This document shows positions 11,051-31,195 of a stretch of DNA of 64,000 nt, in pieces. The stretch comes from Escallonia rubra (lineage: Eukaryota; Streptophyta; Magnoliopsida; Escalloniales; Escalloniaceae). Position 1 is the stretch's first letter. Each line of letters starts with the position of its first letter. The notes beneath the pieces are model-generated. The model was not told the origin of the DNA. It worked only from the letters and a program-made list of their open reading frames with translations, and made no database searches. The stretch covers positions 62,001-126,000 of the forward strand of contig JAVXUO010001091.1 in assembly GCA_033065855.1 (NCBI GenBank), read 5' to 3'. The position numbers were made by a program, and so were the translations under genes.

Positions 11051-12300
11051 TTTTTTTTTTTTCCAATATTGGTCACTGGCACCTTTGGTTTTGGAGCCAA
11101 GCTATTACGATTCCGTGAAGGAGCTTCAAATTTTGGTTATGTGTACCTACCAACCCCCCAAACCAGATTGGTCTAACTGTCGGGTAATCAAAGAGTAGAT
11201 GATCGATTGTTTCTGCGTGACTTTGGCATATGGGGTAGGAATATGAATTAGATATGTTGAGACGATGAAGATTGAAGTATAGAGGAAGCCTATTCCACAA
11301 TAATTTCCATAAGAAGAATACTAATTTTAAGGGAGTGGGTAGCGACCACACTTTTTTCCAAAGTCTTGAGTTAAAGGGAGGTCTAGATTGAAGGCCACGA
11401 AGTTTACGATCTTCGGAGTTGAGGTGATATAGCATGCAATAAGCTAAAGAGACGATGTAATCATCGTTCTTAGTTCCCTTCCAAACCTGAGTATCTTCAA
11501 TTGGGTGTGGTGAGATATGGATAGCTAGAATCTTGGTTGAGAGCTCGGTAGGGAATATAGAGTTCATTGATTGGGTGTTCCAGGCATTATTATGGATGAG
11601 ATCTTTGACTAGTGAAACTTGATGGTAGTCGTCATTTGAAACGACAAGGGGTTGGAACTCCTCACTAAGAGTCAAGTCGTCTTTCCAAATAGAGATCTTG
11701 GATCTAGTACCAACCTACCATCTAAGACTCCTTGTGATGACCTGGCGCCCCGCTAGAAATTCCACGCCAACCTTAAGAAAAATTTCCTTTTGTTTAGCAA
11801 TTTCTAAAGTTAGATCTGGTACAATATTTTCCCGTAAGAACTCTTGCTAGTAAGCTCTTAGGCTCCTTGAGTATCCTCCAGCTGGTTTTAGCTAGAAGAG
11901 CTTGATTAGAAAGCCATATGTCCTTGAACCCTATTCCACCCGTATATTTAGGAACACATAAAGCATTCCGATTAATCTAATGCACTGAGTTTGTACGATC
12001 AAACCTTGCCCACCAGAATTTACACAGGAGCGAGTTAATTGATTTACTGATAAGTTTTAGGAACATACAGAACTGTAAGTGGTAGTTGAGCAGTGATGAC
12101 AACACATAATAGATAAGGGTTGCTCTGCCAGCCTTGTTCAGAAGGACACCTTTCCACCTTACATATATCGTCTGGATTCACCTTTGGTTGCATACATATC
12201 CTTATTCTTTGTAAATCTACATAGATGTTCTGCCAGTCTCATGATCTACAAAAGCTTTAAGAATCGTTACAAGCGGGTCCTTTTTTCTTTAACGGCATCC
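11051..12300 (-). mobile_element. 5'-truncated L1-type LINE, 3' part
   Basis: The minus frame 11073-11675 encodes about 200 residues typical of the end of a plant L1 ORF2: the LWKKVWSLPTPLKLVFFLWKL block, then NRLP and a zf-RVT-like region (PICQSHAETIDHLLFDY). The zinc-finger pattern is imperfect, Tyr standing where a Cys is usual. Upstream on the same strand (about 11700-12300) a decayed reverse-transcriptase tail can be read in pieces with many stops, including a QALL-AK--WRIL-type stretch. After the stop at 11073 the strand runs into an A-tract (11051-11062 as T on the plus strand), the expected LINE tail. The 5' end was lost or never copied. Confidence 0.75.
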
Positions 12301-12903
12301 CACATTTGCCTTAGACCAAGCAAAGCTTACCATGACCTATAGGTAGACCTCGCCCGGGGCCAAAAAACTAGACATGGACATTAATTTTGTCTACTAAAAA
12401 ATTTGCAGGTAATATACCCGTACCATATGGTCCGAGTAAAAATGGGTTGGGCATTGTTATACCTGCAGGTTAGTTCTATTCGAGTTTTAAATTTTAATCT
12501 CTTTCATGGTCAACAACAACTCCAAGCCTTCAGACAGTATTCTTGGTCGCGCTACTAGACAACCCAACGCCACTTCCTACTGTCCACCATCTCTTTTAGG
12601 TATGTGATTGTGTCTGTTTTTTTATATGGGAGTGTGTGTCTGTGCACGGGCGCATTTGTTACTCTGTTGTCATTCTAGTGTGTATGTGTGCGCGCACGCA
12701 CTAGTCCATGTCGATGTGTGTGCACGTCTCTTGGTGGGTGGGTGCGCTTACTCTATGTGTGTGCATGTAGCCTCTGTGTGTAAGTGTGTCATTATGTGGG
12801 TTGTGTGACTGTGTATGGGTGTCTTTGTGTTGTGTGTGCGCGTGCACGCTTATGTTATCGTGTTGTGCGTGTGCATCTGTTACTCAATGTGTTGGTTATT
12901 TAC

Positions 12904-14390
12904 GGTCCGTTTGGAACCAATTCTTTTAGGATTTGGATTTCATATTTGGAATTGGATTTAGAATTCAATTCACTTTTTTTTGTTTGGAACGAAAGGGAAT
13001 TCAAATCACAGAATTCCAATTTTGTGTTTGGAGAACAGAGGAAATGGAAAGGTAAAAAACTTTTAGACAATTATATCTTTGATTCACGATAGAAAACAAA
13101 TTACGGTAAGTAATTTCAAGTGTGCCACCACCACCACATGGTGGTGGTGGCAGCACCACACGGGGTTGCAACATCGACGGTGGAAGTGGTGGGGTGGTCA
13201 AGTGATGATAATGATGGTAGTGTTGGTATTGAGGTGTAATAAGGTGTAACTAGTGGTCGTCAACTGACGCCAATAGTGATGCTGGTGGCGGTGGTGGCAA
13301 TAATGGTGGCGGCGGCGGTGATGGCAGTAGTGGTGACTATGGTGGTGGCATTATTGGTGGTTATGGTGGCGGTGGCTGTGGCGGCGACAGTGGTGTTGGT
13401 GGTGGTGGTGGCGGTGGTGGTGGCGATGGTGGTAGTTGTGTCTTTGGTGGTCGTCAACTGACGCCAATAGTGATGCTGGTGGCGGTGGTGGCAATAATGG
13501 TGGCGGCGGCGGTGATGGCAGCAATGGTGACTATGGTGGTGGCATTATTGGTGGTTATGGTGGCGGTAGGTGTGGTGGCGGTGGCTGTGGCGGCGACAGT
13601 GGTGTTGGTGGTTGTGGTGGTGGTGGCAGCGGTGGTGGTGGCAGTAGTGGTGGCGATGGTGGTAGTTGTGGCAGTACTAGTAGTGGCGGTGGCGGTGGCA
13701 GTAATGGCGGCAACGGTGGTAGTTTTGGCAGTACTGGCGGTGTTGGCGATTGTGGTAGTGGTGGCGGTGGTGGTGAAGGAAGCAGTGGTGGTGGTGGTGG
13801 TGGTGGTGAAGGATGCAGTGGTGGTGGCGGTGGTGGCGATGGTGGTGGCAGTGGTGGGTGGCGTAGTGGTGTTGGCGGTGGTTGTGGCGGGCGGTGTTGG
13901 CGATTGTGGTAGTGGTGGCGGTGGTGGTGAACAGTGGTAGTCTGTGGTGGCAGTGCGGCGGTGTTGGCGGTGGTTGTGGCGGCAGCAACAGTGGTAGTCA
14001 AGGCGGCGATGGTAGTGTAGCGGTGGTGGTGACAGTGGTGGTAGTGATGACGGTGGTTTGGCAACAACAATGGTGGCGATGGTGGTGGCAGTAGTGGAGT
14101 AGTGGTGCTGGTAGTAAAAGTGGTGTGACTGTAGCGTCAATGAAGATGGAGGTAGTGGGTTCATTGTTGGAGAGATCCAAAAAAAAGATAAGATAGGTAA
14201 ATAATTAATTTTAATTTAAGTAAATCGAAATCTCATCAAATCCGACAATTTTTCATCGAATTTCACACTATAGAAACAAATCCAGTCAAATCCCATGAAA
14301 TACAATTCCAATTCCTTTTTTTAATGTTCCAAACAACAAAATTTGAGGATTTGAAATGAAATCCCATCAATTCAATGGTTCCTAACACAC
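12904..14390. mobile_element. Tourist/PIF-Harbinger-like element with triplet core
   Basis: Comparison with copy 1 of the host repeat shows extra sequence here. Its left end reads GGTCCGTTTGGAACCAATT and its right end, reverse-complemented, AGTGTGTTAGGAACCATT, an imperfect inverted repeat of about 18 bp. Both ends continue with AT-rich 'gaatt/aattc'-type sequence. A TTA trinucleotide flanks both sides, the target duplication typical of PIF/Harbinger. No transposase is present, so it would be a non-autonomous copy. About 1 kb of its interior is GGT/GGC triplet repeat. Confidence 0.55.
13107..14110. repeat. GGT/GGC-type triplet array with 194-bp minisatellite
   Basis: About 1 kb consists of GGTGGC-type triplets on the plus strand. 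It includes a nearly exact tandem duplication of a 194-bp unit: 'caactgacgccaatagtgatg' type starts occur at 13261 and again at 13455. Higher-order units of GGTGGTGGTGAAGGA type recur between 13780 and 13930. Because the period is a multiple of three over long stretches, all frames on both strands stay open, giving Gly/Ser-, Val- or Thr/Pro-rich ORFs that are not genes. Confidence 0.85.
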
Positions 14391-15125: not shown

Positions 15126-16161
15126 TCGTGAACAATCAGTGATCGTAACAATACCCTCGAAGATCGCCATATATACCCATTTTGGACCGCAACGCGTCCT
15201 AGTAACGAAGCCTTTCTTCTGTAGTCTCTTTGCAGTCGGAGTGTATGCTCTATTGGACAACCAGGATGCCGTGAGAAGAGGCATTCTGCAGTAAAATGAG
15301 AAGGAGAAACTTCAGTTTAGCACAGGAAGCTAAGAACTGTTAAAGAACTGGTAACTCTTTAAGCTAAGAGACTAGTACTTTAAAGGGTACACATTGTTGG
15401 ATCACTAAAGGAGCTAAATTGTAGAACCTTGCTAGGTAAATTGAAGCAGTTACAGATGAGCTATTCTGACCAACATATCTAACGAGATTTCAGTTTTGCA
15501 CAAATTTGCAAAAAAATGAGAGTAATACAAGTGATAATCCATTTATCATATTTTGTTAACGTTAGTCACTATTAATTTGGTACTAATCTTATTCTTTATA
15601 ACCCAAAACAATGATTTCTATAGACAAAGCCTTCCTTACTAGCAATAGTAGCTTTAGCGCATATATTATTGTAAGGTGTTATTATTATTTTTTGTTTCAT
15701 GTCATGAGTTATGCATTGTTATCTGCTTTAAAAGCATAAACTTTTAGAGAATGAACCCAACAATGTTATCATGCTTAATACTTTTTCCTCACGTGCAAGC
15801 TCCCGATTGAACGTTGAGAGACGAATCAAGTTAGAAATAAATTAAAATTGAGTGCAAATAGCACTATGATAAAAAAAAGGACAAGATATGCAAGCGAGAA
15901 GAACTGAACCCAAGACCTTGCTAAATCAGAGCTCTGATGCCACATTAAGTTACCGTCTGCTAGCTTTTAGAGAATGTGTCCAACAATATTATCATGTTTA
16001 ATATGCATTAATACACTTTTTAAAATCTTATAAAATATGTTAATAATTGACCATAGCTTGGCTCGTGTTTCTGAGCTAGTTAAATCAACATGATAAACGC
16101 TAATGTCGGCAAAAAATCATGTTAAGAAAAGGGTCACGAGAAGCTTAATAAACGTTCAAAA
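15126..16161. other. Intergenic, no gene recognised
   Basis: The minus frame 15048-15284 opens after an acceptor-like 'tactgcag' but resembles no family I can name and partly lies in the repeat end. The rest is AT-rich. It is the 3' flank of the TIR-CBM22 gene. Confidence 0.4.
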
Positions 16162-19100
16162 TTAATCAAAACGGACCTGGAGATCAAGATCAGCTGGTGC
16201 TTGACGTGCGCACACCCGTGGACCTCTTACAAAAATATCAGTGCCTGGTGGAGAACCGTTTAGGCATATGACTGCTGTTAATGGGGCACAAGGTAGAAGG
16301 AACTTCCCCTCCAACTTCACCCAGCTCTTCTTTGTTGCCAGTGCCCTTCATAACAAGAAAAGTACTGAAAACTTTTTGAGGAGTCGCAAAATTTATGGTT
16401 GAATCATTTCCTTCATTATCACAGCAAAAAGAAGAAACTTGCATGAATATGTATAACATGGTCGAAGAGGCCCAGGGGACTCCAATCAACAACCTTCTGG
16501 GGTGCATTTTGGTTCCCAGTTCGGTTAGTCTCTGAAGACACTTGCGGAAAAAAGGGAGAGAGACACTTGGACGTCTAGCTTATGAGCTAGCATATCATTA
16601 AAGATAGAAACCGGAGCATACAGGAATTGGATCAGTCTTTAACCGGAGCATACTCCTCTGAATGCGTCCTTAAGATCATCAAGAGAAGGGAACTTAGTTT
16701 CGGTCGACGCTGAAGCTGGCTCGAGAATACTTCATACGTTCAACCAGAAAAAATATATATATATATTATATGCTCCGAGGAGAAATTGCTTTTGACCACG
16801 TACATCTAAACTCCCTTTAGAGCATCCGAAGCTCGACTGCGGCCCATTTGTTCCATGCTGCTGCTTCGGCATCACGTTATACGAAAGGGGTTCACTATTC
16901 CGTAAGGCGCGTAATTAAGACTTTCTTTTCTCACTATCTGATCTAATATTTAGAGAGTTTCAGTGCGACCACTGGGGATTGTGGGACTTTCTCATCTTTG
17001 CCTTTGTAATTAGTGAAAATCTTGCTGGGTTGTTTCTCGTTGCATAACCCTGTTAAATCCTCTCTAATTGCACAAATGTAGTTTTGTGTTTTTTCTGGTG
17101 TAGTAAGATTCAAGTAGTGAGGATGTAACGAAGCGAAAATGGTAGAAAAGAAAACATTACGTGACACGGCTGTCATGTATATCACTAACCTTGCTACGAG
17201 TCCGATACTTGTGCTTAGATTATGTCTTCGAATATGTATGGTTGCATCGACATCATCTTCGCCGTCCCCTGAAACTCGAACTTCCGCATTGAGTTCATAA
17301 ACAAGGCCTTTCTGCACTCGAGCACTGATGTCTTGTTCGATTCCACTGTAATACTTGACGCGGTTGGTTGTTCTCGCACAGCCCAAGGATTTACTGAACT
17401 CTGCTCTGCACAAGTTCCTAGCCCATTGTTTTCCATCTTCTAGAAATTCAGGATTTTGTATGATGTTGATGTCCTTGATGTTGCTTGTAAACTGTTTTAC
17501 CTTTATTTAGTCACAAAATGAAGAGTAATTACGTCATGAACGTACAAAGCAATAACATCATTGCTTGAACTCGGTGAAAAGTGAAGTGAAGCACAGTAGG
17601 AAATTAAACTTTTACGTCAATAAGTTTCCACGAAATGCTTGCTTGCAATTAAAAGATTCAGAGAAACAACATGATGATTCATGTTGTTTCTCTGAATCTC
17701 GATTGCAATACTCCGCCATAGTTGTGTCCCTGAAAGTCTTAAACATGAATCACGCTGTGTCCCTGAACGTTGATCTTAAATCATTTGCACCAGCTATTTA
17801 ATAGCTTACAGCCAAGTAAGTTCAAACTGAAATACTCTGTCATAATTGATTCTTTTGTTGTCAGATACAAATCTTACATCGGTAAATAATTAATATTACT
17901 TCAATATATAAGTTTCGTAGGCCTCATTGCCAATTCATTTTGAGTTGGATGCTTTTACATAGTGTCAGAGCAGGTGGATCCAGATCCCGCAGAGAATTCA
18001 AAAATCAGTTTTTCCACCGTCACCCAATTTATTTCTACATGTGCTAGGCGCACTCAAAAATCAATCTGGCCACACACGAAGGGGCATGTTGAGAGATACA
18101 AATCTTACATTGGATAAATAATAAATAATGCTACTTCAATATATAAGCTCTGTACGCCTTATCTCTCATTGTCAATCGATTTTGAGTTAGAACTACAAGA
18201 AAGTCGTTAGGTACCTCTTTTAGCGCCACCGAGTCAATGAGCAAGTCAACTTCGGGAGGGGGACCTTCAAGATAGAAAAACCACCGCGCCCCTTTTATAT
18301 GCGGTAAACGGAACGTGAAGCCCTGTATCTCTTCCCACTGCTGACCTCTTATTAGAGTCCTGCTTTTTATGTGGGGAAAAAGTTCGCAAATTCATTTTCC
18401 AAACAACCCACCAGGGGGAAAAGATTCAACAATAGTTTAAAGCACAATTTCTCTAAAAGCTTAAGCCGTTAGAGAAGTTAGAGAAATTGATCGCACTTCA
18501 TTGGCTTTAAAAAGAAGTATTACCTTCCGATATTCAAGTACTTTTCCTTTTTCTCTCTACGTTCTAATCTTAATGTGGCTTGGACTTTGGCGATCGGTTC
18601 TACATTCCTCAGCTGTATGCATGCAGATAGCATGTAGATAGTATCTGGTGCAAATTTGGAAGTGATTTCTTGTTCGAGGCCTTGCCATTTCTCTGTCCTA
18701 TGTTTTACCCAGGCAAAATGAGTACTCCCTTCTTTTGCTGCAGGGATTCCTTTATATCCATATCTATGTATAAAAGTATACTCTTTATGCATAAGCTTCC
18801 ATGGTTCATCTACTCCCCAAGAGAAGTCATGGTTGTGTATGATATTTCCAAGATCTTTTTGAATCTGCAAAGCAAGGTATTAATTAGGTATCATCCACAT
18901 ATTTTAACCGAGACTATGATGGCAAAGAGAAGCTTAAATGATCTAACATCAAATCTTACGAGACTAGTTAGGGAAGATTTACCACTTGATTAATGATTGT
19001 GAGACTGTACACATCACACAATAATTTTTCCAGACCATTTTTTACACATGTAAGAGTGGATTTTCCTGAAACTTGGTCTTCCAATGTGGCATTTAAACTG

Positions 19101-20175
19101 TTAATCAAGAGCTCCAAGAATCTACTTCAAGAACCATTAAATGCTCGGAATGCCTGAACATCTCAAGCGGGAGTAGTACCTTTGGGACAAAAGAAAATTC
19201 GATTCCTTATGTACATGCAACTCTGCTTGAGACCATCCAAATTTCTATTACACTGCAGCTAAGAGAAAAGCCAAGCAAAAGGATTGTTTTTACATGCATT
19301 GATCGATCCCTATGTCTTCCAGTTGATAAATATGCTATTGATCATCTGCAATCAAATCCACTTAGGAATAACTCGCACAACCCAACAAGAAAATGAGCTG
19401 CGCATGAGAAGACTAACAGTTCTGTTACTACCTTGCGGAGCGAGAGCGGCTGGATGTTCTCGACAAGGGAGTCTGCTCCAACGAATTGTTCCACAACACT
19501 TGACACCATATGGCTCTTTTCCTGAACTATTTTATCGACAAGTATCTCAATACATTTCGATTCACGCCTGTAAGCTAGAAAGAATTTATATATGAGATCT
19601 CTGGTTTGACATGAAGGAAAATGCAGAAGTCTTAAGGCGACAGGTTCTTGAAAACGAGGTTATAGAACTAACCCGTTGGCTGTATTTGAGACATCCAAAC
19701 CTGATATACTGGTTACTTCAATCAGTGCCTTCCTCCATCCGGGTACCTTCTCCTTACATCTGACTTCATGTTTGGCAAACGCGTCTGCAAAACTCCCTGT
19801 TTGGTAGCGAATGACTGATGGTTCTACTTGGTAGAAGACGGGAATGACGGTCAGTCCCGTCAGGTTCCTGCATTCCATGATCTTGACGAGTTCATCCAAG
19901 CACCACGACGAAGTTGCGTAGTTCCTCGAGAAAACTACAATGGCGAACATGGACTCTTGAATTGCCCTCAGAAGTTCAAGCGGGATCGACATCCCCGTTT
20001 CGAGTTGCTCGTCATCTTTGAAGGTGTGTACACTCCTCCGGATCAAAGCATCGTAGAGATGGTCAACAAAGTTGTTGCGCGTGTCTGCGCCTCTAAAGCT
20101 CAAGAACACGTCGTAGATCCATCGCCTTGGAGCACCGGAAGAAGACGCCGTCTCTGTCCCTGTTAAGGAGGCCAT
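16162..20175 (-). CDS. TIR domain fused to two CBM22 modules
   Basis: Six exons on the minus strand (20175-19673, 19567-19432, 18864-18524, 18359-18215, 17491-17190, 16345-16162) join in one frame of 536 residues with intron phases 2,0,2,0,2 and a TAA stop. Residues ~20-165 are a TIR domain: YDVFLSFRGADTR, the loop near KDDEQLETG, WCLDEL with the Glu (residue 95) used by plant TIR NADases, and VIPVFYQVEPS. Residues 168-213 match the usual TIR/NB-ARC linker (ESKCIEILVDKIV, FVGADSLVENI) but stop before any P-loop. Residues ~214-375 are a CBM22 module (NIIHNHDFSWG, KWQGLEQEIT, ATLRLE, WEEIQGFTF, YLEGPPPEVDLLID). Residues ~376-536 are a second, more diverged one (INIIQNPEF, SGIEQDI, KSWVKLEGKFLL, GSPPGTDIFV). 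CBM22 modules normally precede GH10 xylanase domains in plants; none follows here. No signal peptide is evident. Exon structure is a manual prediction; transcription is unproven. Confidence 0.7.
17654..17699. repeat. Perfect 21-bp hairpin in intron
   Basis: The arms 17654-17674 and 17679-17699 are exact reverse complements ('agattcagagaaacaacatg' on the left) separated by a 4-base loop. It lies in the intron between the two CBM22 modules. Such a short perfect stem could be a small inverted duplication or MITE relic; no miRNA claim can be made from sequence alone. Confidence 0.85.
17856..18197 (+). mobile_element. TRIM (miniature LTR retrotransposon)
   Basis: Two ~105-bp direct repeats (17856-17959 and 18087-18197) both begin TGTTG, contain 'gatacaaatcttaca' and end in ACA. 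The short interior starts with a 'gtgtcagagc' primer-binding-like site complementary to initiator Met tRNA and ends in a purine-rich 'gaaggggca' tract. No protein is encoded, as expected of the TRIM class. It is a fossil inside the TIR-CBM22 intron. The two repeats differ visibly, so it is not recent. Confidence 0.75.
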
Positions 20176-22899: not shown

Positions 22900-25825
22900 G
22901 GTATTATCACGTTCCTTTCTTATGTATTCTTTTGTCGGGAAGCAACATTGACACAATTTTTCAAAGGAGTCGATATCAAGAGCAAAGGCGCCGTTGGAGC
23001 AGCTGATACACATTGATTTGTGTGGTCCAATCGATCCAGCATCTCTTGGTAAGAACATATATTTTTTACTATTCATTGATGACTATAGTGGGAAAACATA
23101 GGTTTATTTCCTCACGCAGAAGTCAGAAGTGTTCTCAACCTTCAAGAGGTTTAAGGCTCTTGTCGAGAAGCATAGTGGATATCAGATCAAGGCGATGAGA
23201 TCTGATCGAGGTGGAGAGTTTATATCTAAAGAGTTCAAGGCATTATGTGAACAGAATGGCATCCGTCGACCACTTACCATTCGATATTCACCCCAACATA
23301 ATGGAGTGGTGGAAAGAAAGAATCGATTGATAGTGAACATGACTAGAAGCATGTTGAAGAGGAATAATTTGCCCAAGGATATTTGGGCTGAGGCCGTAGA
23401 TTGTGCGGTCTATCTATTGAATCGATGTTCGACAAGGAGTGTGTGGAATCAAACACGACAAGAAGCTTGGAGTGGATACAAGCCAAGTGTGTCCCACTTG
23501 AAAGTGTTTAAAAGTATTGCATATATATGTGCATATTCTTGATCAGCAAAGAAAAAAGCTCGATGATAAAAGTGAGAAGTTCATCTTCATCGGTTACAAT
23601 CAACAATCAAAATGGTGCAAGGTATACAACCCTGTTGATAAGAAGATGAAAGTCAGTCGAGACGTGACTTTCAATGAGAAGAGCTCATGGGACTGGACTG
23701 ATCGAGACAAGGAGCAGTATGTTTTTTATCCGATCGATACGGATAAAAAAAGATAGAAGAAGAGCCAATAGAACATGTGACTCCCTTGAGTCACGTATCT
23801 CTGACTCAATCGAGTCCATCATCATCATCGGTCGATAGTCCTGTTAAGACAGAACCACAAGGCAAGAGATCCCTGGAAGAGATTTATGATGATTTGAATT
23901 AGAACCAAGGTATGTTCTGTCTCTTTGGCGATACTGAGCCAATCGATTTTGATGAAGCATCAAGAAGTGAAAAATGGAGGAAGGCCATGAATGAAGAGAT
24001 CGATGCAATCGAGAAGAATGATATTTGGGAGCTGACGACTCTTCAATCGGGAAAGAATCCCATTGGTGTAAAATGGGTTTATAAAGTGAAGAAAAATTTT
24101 GAAGGCAAGGTTAAGAGATACAAAGCAAGGCTTGTTGTCAAAGGATATAAGCAAAGGGTTGGAATCGACTATGATGAAGTCTTCGCCCATGTCGCTCGAT
24201 TGAAAACGATACGACTGTTGATATCTCTAGCAACTCTAAATAAGTGGAAGATCCATAGGATGGATGTGAAGTCAACCTTCCTTAATGGTTTTCTTGATGA
24301 AGAAGTCTATATCGAATAACCCAAAGGATATGTTGTTGGAGGCCATGAAGACAAAGTGTTAAGGCTGAAGAAGACCTTGTATGAGTTGAAGCAAGTGTCA
24401 AGGGCGTGGAACATTCCCATCGACAAGTATTTTGAAGATAGGGGCTTTAAGATGTGCCCACATGAGCATGCCCCCTACATCAAGATGAATGGAAAAGGTG
24501 ACATCTTGATAGGATGTTTATATGTCGATGATTTAATCTTTACATGCAACCGTGTGAAGATGTTTGATGATTTTAAGAAGGAAACGGCCAAGGAGTTTGA
24601 AATGACTAATATCGGTTTGATGTCATATTATCTTGGAATCGAAGTAAAGCAAAGAGATTATGAAAATATGGAAAATTGTAACACAATCAGTATCCCCATC
24701 GAAGTTGAAAAGAAGTTGTCAAGACACATCAAAGAAGGTCCAATCGATCGGACCTTATTCAGAAGCTTGGTTGGTAGTTTGAGGTTTTTGACGTGCACAA
24801 GGCCTATGCAATCGCTTTTGTTAGTCGATTTATGGAGAATCCGGCAACTTATCACTTCAAAGTGGCAAAAAGGATACTTCGGTACCTTAAAGGTACAATT
24901 GATCTTGGCATATTTTATCCTGCGTTTGGTGATATGAAATAAGTGGGATATAGTGACAGTTATTGAGCTAGAGACGTCGATGATCATAAAAGCACAACTA
25001 GATTCATTTCTTATTTTGGTGTAGCAGCATTCACATGGACATCGAAGAACTAATTGATAGTGACTCTATCGACATGTGAAGCTGAATATATGGCTGCAAC
25101 ATCGACTGTTTGCCATGTAATATGGCTAAGAAGTTTCCTTAAGGAGCTCAGTTTTGATCGAGATGAATCGACACAAATTTATGTCGATAACAAGTCAGCC
25201 ATAGCTCTTGCTAAGAATCCAGTCTTTCATGATCGAAGCAAGCACATCAATACACGGTATCATTTCATCCGTGAGAGCATTGCTAAGAAACAAGTCCAAG
25301 TCAAGTTTGTGAAGTCCGAAGATCAAGTTGCCGATATCTTCATAAAGCCCCTGAAAAAATAAGTCTTCGAGAAGCTACGGAGTCGACTTGGAATAAGAGA
25401 ATCAAGCTTAAAGGGGGCTGTTGAGAGCTAATCTTGATTCTACAAAGTTATGACAATTGATGAGGAAGAATCAAGACATGAATAAATGAATAGAAGGTGA
25501 AAAGTGAAAAGTTATGGGAGTTACTCATAACCTATGAGTGATTAAATAAGAACATGAAAAGTGAAAGGTTAGGGGAGTTATATTTAGGAGATAAGTGAGT
25601 CTTTAAATGTCTTTCTATGTAATAGTATAAATAGGTGCATCTCCTAGTCATTTGGTAGTGGAATCTAAGGGGGAAAAAGTGTGGAAATGGTGAGTGAGTT
25701 TATGAAAAGAAGTGTTGATTGAGTAGAGAAAAATATTTGAAGAGTGTTTCTCATCTCCACTTCCTCCTCCTCTAAAGTATTTCCGCTGCAATATATCTCC
25801 CTTATATTGTGCCCATCACGCAACA
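22900..25825 (+). mobile_element. 5'-truncated Ty1/Copia retrotransposon (fossil)
   Basis: Order of parts: integrase core (about 23000-23550), the integrase-RT linker, reverse transcriptase (about 23900-24950, with a YVDDL box), RNase H (about 25050-25360), a purine-rich tract, and a 3' LTR (25419-25825, TGTTG...CAACA). The order integrase before reverse transcriptase defines Copia. The 5' LTR, gag and protease are absent. The coding region is broken, with about half a dozen interruptions. No partner LTR lies nearby, so age cannot be read from LTR divergence. Confidence 0.88.
25419..25825 (+). repeat. 3' LTR of the truncated Copia
   Basis: 407 bp bounded by TGTTG and CAACA, preceded by the purine tract 'aaaggggg'. 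It includes a TATA-like 'gtataaatag' at about 25626. Confidence 0.75.
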
Positions 25826-26239
25826 CCAGTGGATCTTGTAGTGTGACTTGCCAAAAGCTTGCTCATCCACTTACGGAACTCCAGTCTATTAGAGTTGCGC
25901 TTACTGGATGTGCTGAGGGAATGCGGGATGCAACTTGACGCAGATGTTAAGAGATTGATGTACGTTATAGTTGGTAATAAGTGATGAAATCTTGCTAAAA
26001 TTTTGCTCCATGGAGTCTTTTTAAGCTAGAGTAGCTAAGGTACGTATCACAGTATATAGGCAAGGGTTAGTATATATGTGCATGTGCTTTAGAGTAATGG
26101 AATATCTAAAATGATTGGCCACCGCCCTGATCTCTGCCAAACGGTTGATAGAAGAATATGACTCATAGTAACCTGCCAAGCCACTACAATTTTCGGAATA
26201 TTGGTGATTACTAGCTAGGAAGATTATGATTAGAGCAAT
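25826..26239. other. Spacer between two Copia elements
   Basis: No gene recognised. A short plus frame follows the LTR (to about 25938) but has no familiar motif. Confidence 0.4.
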
Positions 26240-26480
26240 AATATGCACTGGAGGGACCAGACTTTTGGTAGCTTTCAATTCCTCGTGCTCGAGCTTGCCC
26301 CTGTTCATCAGTACCTCTTTACTGCAAAGCGCCATGGGAATCAACTTAAGCCAGCTCTCGGGTTACATGAATCATACATCTTTGGAAACTAAATTGACAA
26401 CACCAACCTGGTTTTTGACGTGCATTCTGACACTGTCGTGAGAAATATCTTCTTTTGGTATGATGTATGAACAAAATGAC
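26240..26480 (-). pseudogene. Possible CBM22-like relic
   Basis: On the minus strand a stretch reads DSVRMHVKNQ, VGVVNLVSKDV and, after two stops, ESWLKLIPMALC. The spacing resembles the middle of a plant CBM22 module (V-A-L-V, IGIANVQ, then a W-KL/Q-L block), as in the second CBM22 of the gene at 16162-20175. The match is weak, has no clear exon ends and could be chance. If real it is a broken fragment of the same gene family about 6 kb upstream. Confidence 0.25.
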
Positions 26481-26616
26481 ATGCGATTCCTTAAGAAGTC
26501 CTAGGCAGGATCTAGGGAGAAGCCTCTTCGTTTGCAAAAAACATGTCCTTCGTTATCAATTATTATTCAGCAGACTTTCTGCTTTAACGACATTCAAGAA
26601 TATTACATATATTATC

Positions 26617-27127
26617 AATTGGGTCTACGGGTGTCCTCACCCATGAGGTAACCCATTTGAATTAGGTCTCTTTAAGTGGCATGGGGAGTTACCTAGTTTG
26701 AATGGGTAATGAATTCTTTATTAAGGTCTTCTAAAATAAATGGAACTCTATCATCTTCTCTAACTTTCTGCATAAGAGGTAGAGAGAAAATTGAGGGAGA
26801 GCAACCGTTTGTGTAGATCTTTGTTGGGTTTGTCAACTCAAATAGGTAACCCTTTTGCATTCTCTATTTATTGTGATTCCTCAAACTCAAATTTGGTGTG
26901 CAAATTTGAGAAGAACCATTGTATTGCAAGTTGTTGATACAGTGGATTTGGTTCGAAGTTTGGCCCGTGGTTTTTCCCTTCTCATTAGAGGATTTCCACG
27001 TTAAATCTTTGTGTCTTATGGTTGTTTATTGTTATTTGGGATTGCATCATATTATTATTTGGGTTTGACTTGCTTTGCATAATATATTATTATTGTTGAT
27101 ATCGAATTCAATTGAGTTGGGACAACA
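26617..27127 (+). repeat. 5' LTR of the full-length Copia
   Basis: Matches 31196-31707 along its length and ends CAACA just before the tRNA-Met primer site. Confidence 0.9.
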
Positions 27128-30100
27128 AAGTGGTATCAAGAGCTTGGTTCTTTGTATAAATTGTATGTGTGAATTGAATGGAGGATTTATGCGGGTGCCA
27201 TGTTAAAGCTTACGGCTACAAATTATTTAATTTGGAAGCCAAGAATGGAAGATATTTTATTTTACAAAGATTTATATGACCATGTTGATGGTGATAGTTC
27301 CAAACCTAAAAGTATGGATTCTAGATCATGGGAGAAATTGAATAGAAAAGTTGTTGGGTTAATTAGGCAATGGATTGACCACGGTGTATTTCACCATGTG
27401 TCCCAAGAGACGAACGCCCAAACTTTGTGGAAAAAGTTAGAGTCTCTTTATGAGAGGAAAACGGCCTAGAATAAAGCCTTTTTAATTAGAAGGCTTGTGA
27501 ATTTAAAATTCAGAGATGAAAATTCTATTGCTGAGCATTTGAGGAATTTCCTGAGTTTGGTCAATCAGTTGACAACCATGGAAATGAATTTTGATGATGA
27601 GATGCAAGCCTTGTTGCTTTTGAGTTCATTACCGACAGTTGGGAGACATCAGTTGTATCTCTGAGCAATTCTGCTCCCAATGAGAAGCTAACTTTGTGCA
27701 TGGTCAAAGATAGCATGTTAAATGAAGAAGAAAGGCGCATGGATGTAGGCACTCATCAATCACAGACTCTTGTCTCCGAGAACAGGGGCAGACAATGGCA
27801 TAAAGGTGAAAATAAGAGGTATAAGAATCGTAATAAAAGCCAAGGTGCCAAAGTTAAGTCTAAAGGATGAGATGATTCGAAAGAGTCATTTGTTTGTTAC
27901 CACTGTAAACAGGAAGGCCACTTGAAGAGAAATTGTCGTATTTGGAAGCGAGAGCAGAAAAGTGGTGACAAGGGGAAGAAGGCCGGACAAGAACACTACG
28001 GCCAGTGTCTATGAAGATGTGGTAGTACTTTCTGTTGGTGAGGAAGATTGCTTGCATGTTTCAGATCAAGCTATTGAGTGGGTTGTTGATACAGCGGCCT
28101 CATACCACGCTACTCCCCGGAAGGAATTCTTCTCTACTTATAAAGCATTTGACTTTGGGGTTGTGAGGATGGGCAATACAAGCCGGTCAAAGATTGTAGG
28201 AGTAGGTGATGTGTGCATTCAGACAATTGTTGGTTGCATAGTTGTGTTGAAGGATGTTCGACACATTCCAGATTTGCGTCTCAACTTGATTTCAGGAATA
28301 GCTATGGATAGACAAGGCTTTGAAAATTATTTTGGCAATGAAAAATAGAAGCTCACTAAGGGTTCGATGGTAGTTGCAAGAAGGGCTGTTTGTTGTACCT
28401 TGTACAAGACCTATGTCAAGGTGTGTTCTAGTGGATTGAATGCGGTTGAAATGAGTCTTCACCGAACTTATGGCACAAGAGACTTGGCCACATGAGTGAA
28501 AAAGGCTTGCAGATTCTGGCGAAGAAGTCTCTCATTTTTTTTGCCAATGGTAATGTTTTGAACCCTTGTGATTATTGTTTATTTGGCAAACATCATAGAG
28601 TTTCATTTAGTTCCTCTTTGAAAAAAAAATCTAACTTGTTAGATTTGGTTTACTCTAATGTTTGTGGTCTTATTGAGGTTGAATCAATAGGAGGAAACAA
28701 GTACTTCTTGACTTTCATTAATGACCCTTCACGTAACGTGTGGGTTTATTTTTCGAAAACAAAAGACCAAGTGTTCCAGTATTTTTAGAAGTTTCATGCT
28801 ATGGTTGAAAGAGAGACAAGAAAATCATTGAAATGCCTTCGTACAAAAAATGGAGGAGAGTACACTTCAAATAATTTTGAAGCATATTGTGCTGATCACG
28901 GTATACGGCATGAGAAGACAGTTCCTCGCACACCCCAGCACAATGGTGTAGCAGAAAGAATGAACCACACTATAGTGGAGAGAGTCAGATGCATGCTGAA
29001 GATGGCCAAACTTCCGAAGTCATTTTGGGGTGAAGCTGTTCGCATTGCTTGCTACCTTATCAATAGGTCTCCATCAGCTCCATTAGATTTTGAGATTCCA
29101 GAGAATGTGTGGAAAAGGGAGTGATGTCTCCTACTCCTATCTGAGGGTGTTTGGGTGCAAGGCATTTGCACATGTACCAAAGGAGCAGAGATCGAAGCTT
29201 GATGACAAGTCAATTCCGTGCATTTTCGTGGTTATGGAGATGTAGAGTTTGGATACAGGTTGTGGGATCCCGAACAGAAGAAGTTGTTCAGAAGCAGAGA
29301 TGTGGTATTTCAAGAGAATCAAAATTTGGCACACTTGGAGAAACAGACACAACCTAAGAATGTGAGAGCTCTTGACCTCGCACCAGTACCTTCTTCATCT
29401 CCAGATGCTACAGACGGGGAAGAGGTTAACGAAGAAGCTCCTGAGACAGATATTCCAAAAACAGATGATGTTGAAGTTGAGCCAGAGACAAAGGGTCTTG
29501 ATCAGGGGGAGCATGAGGAACCCCCAGAGACTACGGTGCCTCAGACACAGAGGTCTTCCAGAGAGCGTTAGCCATCAGTTAGATACTCACCCAATGAGTA
29601 TATTTTGCTTACTGATGAGGGGGAGCTAGAGAGATTTCAGGAAGCTCAAACTCATAAAGACAAGAATTGATGGGTGAAAGCAATGGAAGAAGAGATGAAT
29701 TCTTTGCAGAAAAATGACACTTATGAGTTGGTAAAACTTCCTAAAGGTAGGAAAGCCTTGAGAAACAAATGGGTGTTCAAGCTAAAGAAAGATGGAGAGA
29801 AGCTAGTGAAGTACAAGGCTCGATTAGTTGTCAAGGGCTTTGGGCAGAAGCAAGGGATTGACTTTGATGAGATCTTTTCCCCGGTTGTGCAAATGACCTC
29901 TATTCGAGTAGTCTTGGAGTTAGTGGCTAGCATGGATCTTGAGCTTGAGCAGTTAGATGCCAAGACTGCATTTCTTCATGGGGATTTGGAGGAAGAGATT
30001 TATATGCACCAACCTGAAGGATTTGGAGTTAAAGGGAAAGAGCACATGATTTGCAAATTGAAGAAAAGTCTTTACGGCCTCAAGCAAGCACCAAGGCAGT

Positions 30101-31195
30101 GGTACAATAAGTTTGATTCATTCATGGTGGCTCATGAGTACAAGAGAACTGTAGCTAATCATTGTGTTTATGTGAAGAAATTCCTAGATGGTAACTTCAT
30201 TATTCTTTTACTTTATATGGATGATATGTTGATCGTTGGGCAAGATGCTAACATGATTCATCAACTTAAAGATGATTTGTTCAAGTCTTTTGACATGAAA
30301 GACTTAGGGAATGCAGAGCAGATATTGTGTATGAAAATTACCCGTGACAGGAAGGAAGTTGTGGTTGTCACGGGAGAAATATGTTGANCGAATGCTTGCA
30401 AAGTTCAACATGAGAGATGCTAAGCCAGTTAGCACTCATCTTGCTGGTCACTTTAAGCTGAGCAGAAAGAGAAGATATGGCAATGGTTCCCTACTCGTCT
30501 ACAATAAGGAGTCTTATGTATGCAATGGTCTGTGCTCGTCCAGACATTACTCATGCAGTTAGTGTTGCGAGACGATATCTCTCTAATCCTGGTAGAAAGC
30601 ATTGGGAAGCTGTCAAGTGGATTCTTAAATACTTAAAGGGTACTTCAAGTTTGTGTCTGTGTTTTGGGGGTTCTACGCCAATCTTGGAAGGCTTTACAGA
30701 TTCAGATACGGCAAGTGACCTTGATGGTAGGAAATCTACATCAGGCTTATTATTTACTTTTGCAGGGGGAGCTGTGTCATGGCAGTCCAAACTGCAGAAA
30801 TGTGTTGCCTTGTCTACGACAGAGGCTGAGTACATTGCCATTACTGAGACTAGTCAAGAAATGTTGTGGTTGAAATGCTTTCTCTGAGAGTTGGGTTTGA
30901 GCCAAGAGGAATATGTAGTTCATTGTGATATTCAGAGTGCTATGGACGTGAGCAAGAATGCTACATACCATTTTCGCACGAAGCACATTGATATTCGCCA
31001 TCATTGGATACGCGAGGTGATAAAAAATCAGTTGTTGAAACTAGAAAAAATCCACACAGACAAGAATCCAGCTGACATGATGACAAATGTGGTTCCTAGA
31101 GAGAAGCTTAAGCTTTGCAAGGAGCTTGCCGAAATGGATCCCAAGTGAGTGGTCGTGTTTGGATTCCCTCCTCTCATAAGTTCTGAGGGGGAGAT

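Follow-up and report, generated by a model that had tools for sequence, protein, structure and literature searches.

A four-copy gene family in Escallonia rubra predicted to join a TIR domain to two xylanase-type CBM22 modules

The window, i.e. the whole stretch of DNA that was analysed, comprises 64,000 nucleotides of contig JAVXUO010001091.1 of Escallonia rubra (C2520:62001-126000; assembly GCA_033065855.1, 566 Mb, 3222 contigs). Its minus strand carries a gene, designated W, the seven exons of which give a 546-residue protein with a TIR domain, a linker and two CBM22 modules (CBM-a and CBM-b). The results on this fusion gene and its relatives refer to the genomic sequence of one species in a single assembly. 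The exons of W are the following (window positions).

19673..20175, minus strand: exon 1, start codon and TIR domain (open reading frame, GT donor, Pfam TIR; PDB relatives Roq1, RPV1 and RUN1); exon conserved in four copies.
19432..19567, minus strand: exon 2, linker, like the first part of an NB-ARC exon and ending ahead of the P-loop.
18524..18864, minus strand: exon 3, first part of CBM-a, CBM22-1 type, with conserved Trp (HRTEKWQG) and Tyr (KYLNIG).
18215..18359, minus strand: exon 4, second part of CBM-a (FYLEGPPP).
17190..17500, minus strand: exon 5, first part of CBM-b, CBM22-2 type; in W the binding-site Trp is replaced by Tyr and the Tyr by Ile.
16177..16345, minus strand: exon 6, second part of CBM-b, ending at a phase-0 GT donor.
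15250..15285, minus strand: exon 7, AG acceptor and 36 nucleotides, i.e. 11 codons and a TAG stop (NASSHGILVVQ*); acceptor, length and stop shared by all four copies.

A sequence-only reading of this locus had described six exons and a protein of 536 residues. The GT..AG borders and matching phases that it gave were present in the DNA, and the junction 19432/18864 that it named was in phase 0 on either side. Exons 1-5 and the start of exon 6 were retained, the number of exons became seven and the end at 16162 was given up. Reading through exon 6 to the stop at 16162 yields 539 residues; this C-terminus was ruled out, as the read-through tails of the different copies of the gene vary in length and partly in sequence. 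In each of the four copies a GT directly follows ...DLDLQ, DLDPR or DLDLR, and an AG, 11 codons and TAG are found downstream. Because this GT and the 36-nucleotide exon are common to all copies whereas the read-through tails differ, the seven-exon model was preferred, and the corrected C-terminus of W reads ...DLDLQ NASSHGILVVQ. The proposed architecture of a TIR domain with two CBM22 modules was recovered when the six-exon product was compared with Pfam: TIR (PF01582) matched with E = 1.4e-49 (168.7 bits, curated cut-off 21.3) and CBM_4_9 with E = 2.1e-20 (73.9 bits, curated cut-off 25.9) in two stretches. At E up to 1 the list further contained TIR_2 and a weak HpiC1-like match, and no match to NB-ARC, LRR, GH10 or PP2 (Nictaba). 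Inspection by eye of the N-terminus (MASLTGTETASSSG...) revealed no stretch like a signal peptide. A further domain downstream of exon 7 was considered and rejected; the colinear blocks in this region are alike in several frames about equally and are rich in stops, and were taken as non-coding. With xylanase queries, the best GH10 match in the fetched DNA had E = 4.9, and CBM22-3 retrieved below E 1 only the CBM exons of the fusion itself (best 1.1e-5).

A genome search with the CBM22 part gave 20 matches. These made up four full sets, a lone exon-6-like piece (C2872:92 kb) and three pieces of a xylanase on C988 (27-39% identity). A TIR exon precedes the CBM22 part in the other three copies as well, with 97.6, 91.7 and 78.6% identity to the TIR of W. 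These copies are located as follows.

C2520:43890-40499: copy A42, seven exons.
C2872:80323-85970: copy B82, seven exons.
C2872:113403-118095: copy B114, seven exons.

In all four copies the phases of the seven exons are kept, no internal stop is present and the frame ends in one terminal stop; the coding lengths are 1641 (W), 1632, 1632 and 1626 nucleotides. All 24 introns are bounded by GT/AG, a count that was not blind, as the exon borders were set from protein matches and then adjusted to GT/AG (those of exon 5 in A42 and B82 were shifted by 3 and 6 nucleotides). When the exon-2 linker was searched alone, four of 20 scored candidates matched at E <= 0.001, all at the four fusion loci. A pair of CBM-a and CBM-b without a TIR in front was not found in the genome search, which apart from the four sets gave only the lone exon-6-like piece and the CBM22 exons of the xylanase. 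This lone piece (C2872:92343-92525) represents exon 6 together with the 3' flank and is a duplicate of sequence at 85.2-87.0 kb (82-88% identity); the exon 7 acceptor stretch is missing from it.

Two copies lie on C2520 and two on C2872, and the true loci would be fewer than four if these contigs were partly alternative haplotypes of one region. The 3' flank of W (window 15.3-2.1 kb) is indeed colinear with C2872:86-104 kb, and three blocks running through the gene show 86.5-87.6% identity between A42 and B82. However, between the compared stretches (C2520:31001-126000 and C2872:77001-126000) no block of at least 300 base pairs exceeded 91.0% identity, nor do the copies form allelic pairs, since the synonymous divergence (dS) of B114 is 0.54-0.58 to each of the other three; besides, each contig has two copies in any case. 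The highest block identity within C2520, 95.2%, was that between W and A42 in their TIR region; in C2872 a block of 387 base pairs reached 99.0%. An origin of the copy number in haplotypes is thus considered quite unlikely, and it would be compatible with the other readings of the gene.

The fusion could also be an artefact of annotation, in which two adjoining genes (one TIR-only, one CBM22) or a decayed fusion were copied together. The gene model was derived from genomic sequence alone, and exon 2 read into intron 2 would give a short TIR-only product with tails of 29, 26, 23 and 72 residues. The first three tails are similar along most of their extent, and a short TIR-only isoform may be produced in this way; the 72-residue tail of the fourth copy differs from the others and resembles them only partly. 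A separate CBM22 gene would have no evident start in three of the four copies, where a stop upstream of exon 3 is followed by five in-frame codons without Met and the first Met within exon 3 is residue 25, inside the CBM module. In B114 an ATG is present, two codons ahead of exon 3. The GT donor of exon 2 and the AG acceptor of exon 3 are nevertheless kept in phase 0 in all four copies, and the indels in exon 2 of B114 are whole codons. Separate genes or a decayed fusion are on these grounds regarded as highly improbable.

The ratio of non-synonymous to synonymous divergence (dN/dS, w) was determined according to Nei-Gojobori for the six pairs of W, A42, B82 and B114. Over the whole coding sequence dS was 0.14-0.58 and w 0.27-0.45. 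For the TIR, w was 0.18-0.20 in all pairs except W-A42, and for the linker 0.10-0.38 in five of the six; CBM-a gave 0.26-0.51 and CBM-b, the least constrained module, 0.40-0.56. Ten one-sided Fisher tests, uncorrected and not independent of each other, were performed. They yielded p = 1.4e-12 (W-B114) and 1.4e-6 (W-B82) for the TIR, 2.8e-6 (W-B114), 4e-8 (B82-B114) and 0.012 (W-B82) for CBM-a, and 0.0019 (W-B114), 6.1e-5 (B82-B114), 0.0071 (W-B82) and 0.045 (A42-B82) for CBM-b. Neutral evolution of the B114 coding sequence was simulated with substitutions only; 11 of 2000 runs kept an open frame at a branch length of 0.07, and none of 2000 did so at 0.14, 0.28 and 0.57. The ratios, the Fisher tests and the simulation suggest that selection has retained the TIR and the two CBM modules since the copies separated. 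As four intact copies look kept by selection, TIR-CBM22-CBM22 is probably a gene family in working order. Fixation of a dead fusion by chance, which had been proposed from the sequence of W as one possibility, is unlikely in view of four intact copies under purifying selection.

No pooled 40-codon window in the CBM part had a ratio above 1, and positive selection is not claimed; the highest pooled value was 0.84 at residues 459-498, and change has been faster in the CBM part than in the TIR. The TIR exons of W (20175-19673) and A42 (C2520:43890-43388) differ by a dS of 0.009 as compared with 0.28-0.41 for their CBM parts, a contrast that points to probable gene conversion at the 5' end between these two copies on C2520. 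Intron identities between the copies are rough values, the intron lengths being very unequal.

The origin of the two halves was approached through their relatives in the same genome. A search for TIR sequences yielded 222 candidates, of which 150 were scored and listed, so that the number is a lower bound. Among the matches listed, the TIRs of the other fusion copies were 98, 92 and 79% identical to that of W, the next by score was 67% identical and one shorter piece was 71% identical over 115 residues. The nearest non-fusion TIR by score among them is at C317:123850, in an ordinary TIR-NB-ARC-LRR (TNL) gene. The exon that follows the TIR in this gene begins RHESKVIQELV...DLVGIESRVDEVKSLLELGTDD...GIWGMGGIGKTTLA; by eye, exon 2 of the fusion (RESKCIEILVDKIV...QFVGADSLVENIQPLSLRK) is like its start and ends before the P-loop. 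With phmmer, residues 19-208 of the fusion were aligned to Roq1. Exons 1 and 2 thus look like a TIR-NB-ARC-LRR gene that was cut ahead of the P-loop.

The xylanase gene on C988 has three CBM22 modules and a GH10 domain. In all four copies CBM-a is nearest to its CBM22-1 (39-42%, against 29-32 and 22-26% for the other two modules) and CBM-b to its CBM22-2 (36-40%, against 30-34 and 22-26%). The introns within the modules (phase 2, after ...IGR and ...SR/AR) appear to match those of the xylanase in position, and the phase-0 intron after the second module appears to coincide with a xylanase intron, the xylanase borders having been placed by eye; the comparison covered these introns. A likeness is also seen between exon 7 (NASSYGINFVE* in A42) and the start of the xylanase exon that comes next (CADFGVNIIAN). 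This likeness, although the match is short, suggests that exon 7 is a stop-truncated remnant of the exon for CBM22-3. For GH10, 18 matches were found in the genome, and several exon matches lie close together on each of C2057, C3038 and C2052.

With respect to functional residues, the motif SSWCLDELV with the catalytic Glu is present in all four copies and was aligned with RUN1 and RPV1. The WCLDEL glutamate, to which the sequence-only reading had drawn attention, is Glu95 of W (counted by hand). The fusion TIR accordingly carries the catalytic Glu of plant TIR NADases and is predicted to have NADase activity. The genome contains nine EDS1_EP matches, six of them free of stops (0 of 14 control genomes), and 15 RPW8 matches, 12 of them free of stops (1 of 14 control genomes, below the cut-off). 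The presence of these sequences indicates that this plant probably possesses the usual output pathway of TIR proteins. Seven of the nine EDS1_EP matches, three of which have stops, are clustered at C1421:47-142 kb.

A profile of eight CBM modules (five of the fusion, three of the xylanase) reached the structures 1DYO and 4XUP, and site positions in 1DYO numbering were counted by hand on the profile alignment. Trp53, Tyr103 and Glu138 are said, from work of Xie in 2001, to be important for xylan binding by CBM22. In CBM-a, Trp is found at 53 and Tyr at 103 in all four copies, and Glu at 138 in three. CBM-a has no Arg in the place of Arg25 of 1DYO; 1H6X differs from 1DYO at this position and 1H6Y at 138. 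In CBM-b, the positions of which were taken from an alignment of the modules with the xylanase, 138 is Asn, Glu, Glu and Asp (Glu in two of the four copies).

Elsewhere in the window, pieces of Ty1/copia-type retrotransposons, apparently of two elements, were found at 23102-30387 (matches to rve, RVT_2 twice and Pol_BBD). A LINE-like zf-RVT fragment at 11073-11714 falls where the colinearity with C2872 is interrupted. Positions 13254-14215 are made up of simple repeats and contain long open frames in either strand, those of the plus strand being Gly-rich; the GC content of 12001-14000 is 0.487 and its GC skew 0.36.

Gene structure read from the sequence, four intact copies, purifying selection and the nearest donor families are the observations from which we propose, with a probability of about 0.5, a four-copy family of intracellular TIR proteins in which two CBM22 modules of a GH10 xylanase replace the NB-ARC-LRR part and act as the input part. 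Judged by sequence, the product is best read as a TIR signalling protein whose sensor or decoy derives from a xylanase. In the ancestor, exon 1 and the beginning of the NB-ARC exon from a TNL gene would have been joined to the exons of a triple-CBM22 xylanase through recombination in introns. The protein would lack a signal peptide and stay intracellular, and its TIR would be a NADase feeding EDS1 and RPW8-type helpers. CBM-a would bind a xylan-type glycan or xylo-oligosaccharide and the TIR would thereby be clustered or released; CBM-b would have another role, as protein contact, as spacer or with a changed ligand. Ligand binding or clustering would concentrate the TIRs, and substrate-driven condensation has been reported for TIR proteins (PMC10972746). 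CBM22 modules are described as binding xylan (PMC8280721), and the kept site of CBM-a argues for a glycan ligand. The CBM22 pair may be a captured sensor that was built from a part of a cell-wall enzyme. That it constitutes a new class of non-NLR (non-nucleotide-binding leucine-rich repeat) intracellular immune receptor, in which CBM22 senses xylan fragments directly, or a pathogen protein acting on xylanases, with TIR NADase activity as output, is put forward only tentatively.

A number of points weigh against this proposal. In B114, position 138 of CBM-a is Gly in place of Glu. Position 53 of CBM-b is Tyr in W and Ser in the three other copies, and position 103 is Ile in W and Lys, Lys and Glu in the others, so that neither Trp at 53 nor Tyr at 103 is found in any copy. 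The w of the TIR was 1.18 for W-A42 and that of the linker 1.11 for W-B82, each on just 1 synonymous and 4 non-synonymous changes, and the Fisher test of CBM-a for A42-B82 gave p = 0.12. Both the gene and its protein are known here solely from the genome. Finally, xylan is located outside the plasma membrane, and a cytosolic sensor would therefore need xylan to be delivered.

The CBM22 pair could instead be an integrated decoy that binds no sugar. It would imitate the non-catalytic portion of the xylanase of the plant itself and catch a pathogen protein directed at that enzyme part, upon which the TIR would be triggered. The pair is nearest to modules of the plant's own triple-CBM22 enzyme, CBM-b stays constrained despite the loss of its sugar-contact Trp and Tyr in all copies, and integrated domains of NLRs are considered likely pathogen targets (PMC4759884). 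The absence of the site from CBM-b, together with the faster change there (up to 0.84 at residues 459-498), leaves room for a protein ligand or decoy. On the other hand, no window exceeded 1, the sugar-site Trp and Tyr of CBM-a are kept in all copies and no effector is known, which makes a decoy of this kind rather unlikely. If the protein were of the TIR-only type, its CBM22 tail would just aid folding, multimerization or location, and activation would come from condensation of the TIR driven by its substrate, which has been reported for TIR-only proteins. Signalling without a sensor is described for truncated TNL and TIR-only proteins (PMC10972746; PMC7282519), and CBM-b is the least constrained module; yet purifying selection acts on both modules (p = 2.8e-6 and 0.0019 for W-B114) and CBM-a has preserved its binding Trp and Tyr. 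A tail without an input role is consequently deemed unlikely.

The known proteins nearest in kind to the proposed TIR-CBM22 sensor are the TIR-Nictaba (TIR-PP2) chimerolectins, e.g. Arabidopsis PP2-A5. They likewise carry an N-terminal TIR directly on a carbohydrate-binding-type domain, lack NB-ARC and LRR and form a small duplicated family, but their binding part is a Nictaba/PP2 lectin instead of two xylanase-type CBM22 modules. In one survey, four TIR-Nictaba proteins are given for Arabidopsis and none for soybean, cucumber and two rices (PMC5485960); they have been named from tomato too (PMC4131498). PP2-A5 has been linked with the response to mites, its TIR catalysis and sugar recognition being described as uncharacterized (PMC12355970), and a review of 2026 calls the functions of TIR and PP2 little known (PMC12856790). 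With TNL proteins (Roq1, RPV1, RUN1) the fusion has in common the catalytic Glu motif, exon 1 and the opening codons of exon 2; unlike these it has no P-loop, NB-ARC or LRR, exon 2 ending before the place of the P-loop in the C317 TNL. Plant (CBM22)n-GH10 xylanases, for which the combination reported in poplar is (CBM22)1-4-GH10 (PMC6852159), have two CBM22 modules in the same order with within-module introns apparently at the same place and in the same phase, whereas the fusion has a TIR in front and neither a third CBM22 nor GH10 was found in the fetched DNA. TIR-only and TIR-X proteins such as RBA1 and BdTIR also present a TIR without NB-ARC-LRR (PMC7282519), but the fusion bears defined modules of a ligand-binding type. 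NLRs with integrated domains (NLR-jacalin, NLR-B_lectin) resemble it in that a host domain, sometimes a lectin, is placed on an immune signalling protein (PMC4759884), although the fusion does not belong to the NLRs. That survey mentions neither carbohydrate nor CBM in its main text. No TIR-CBM22 protein was found among the papers listed when the open-licence PMC literature was searched for this architecture, which is, as far as seen within that literature, a new variant of TIR-carbohydrate-binding chimeras.

The family adds a further case, apparently an independent one, in which a plant TIR is attached directly to a domain of carbohydrate-binding type; its origin can be traced to TNL and xylanase exons, and there is evidence of selection. 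The question of what non-NLR TIR proteins sense is made directly testable here because the ligand site of CBM-a is structurally defined, so that binding-site and catalytic-site mutants are possible at once. If the proposal is true, one small protein would tie the surveillance of cell-wall glycans or xylanases to TIR NADase signalling.

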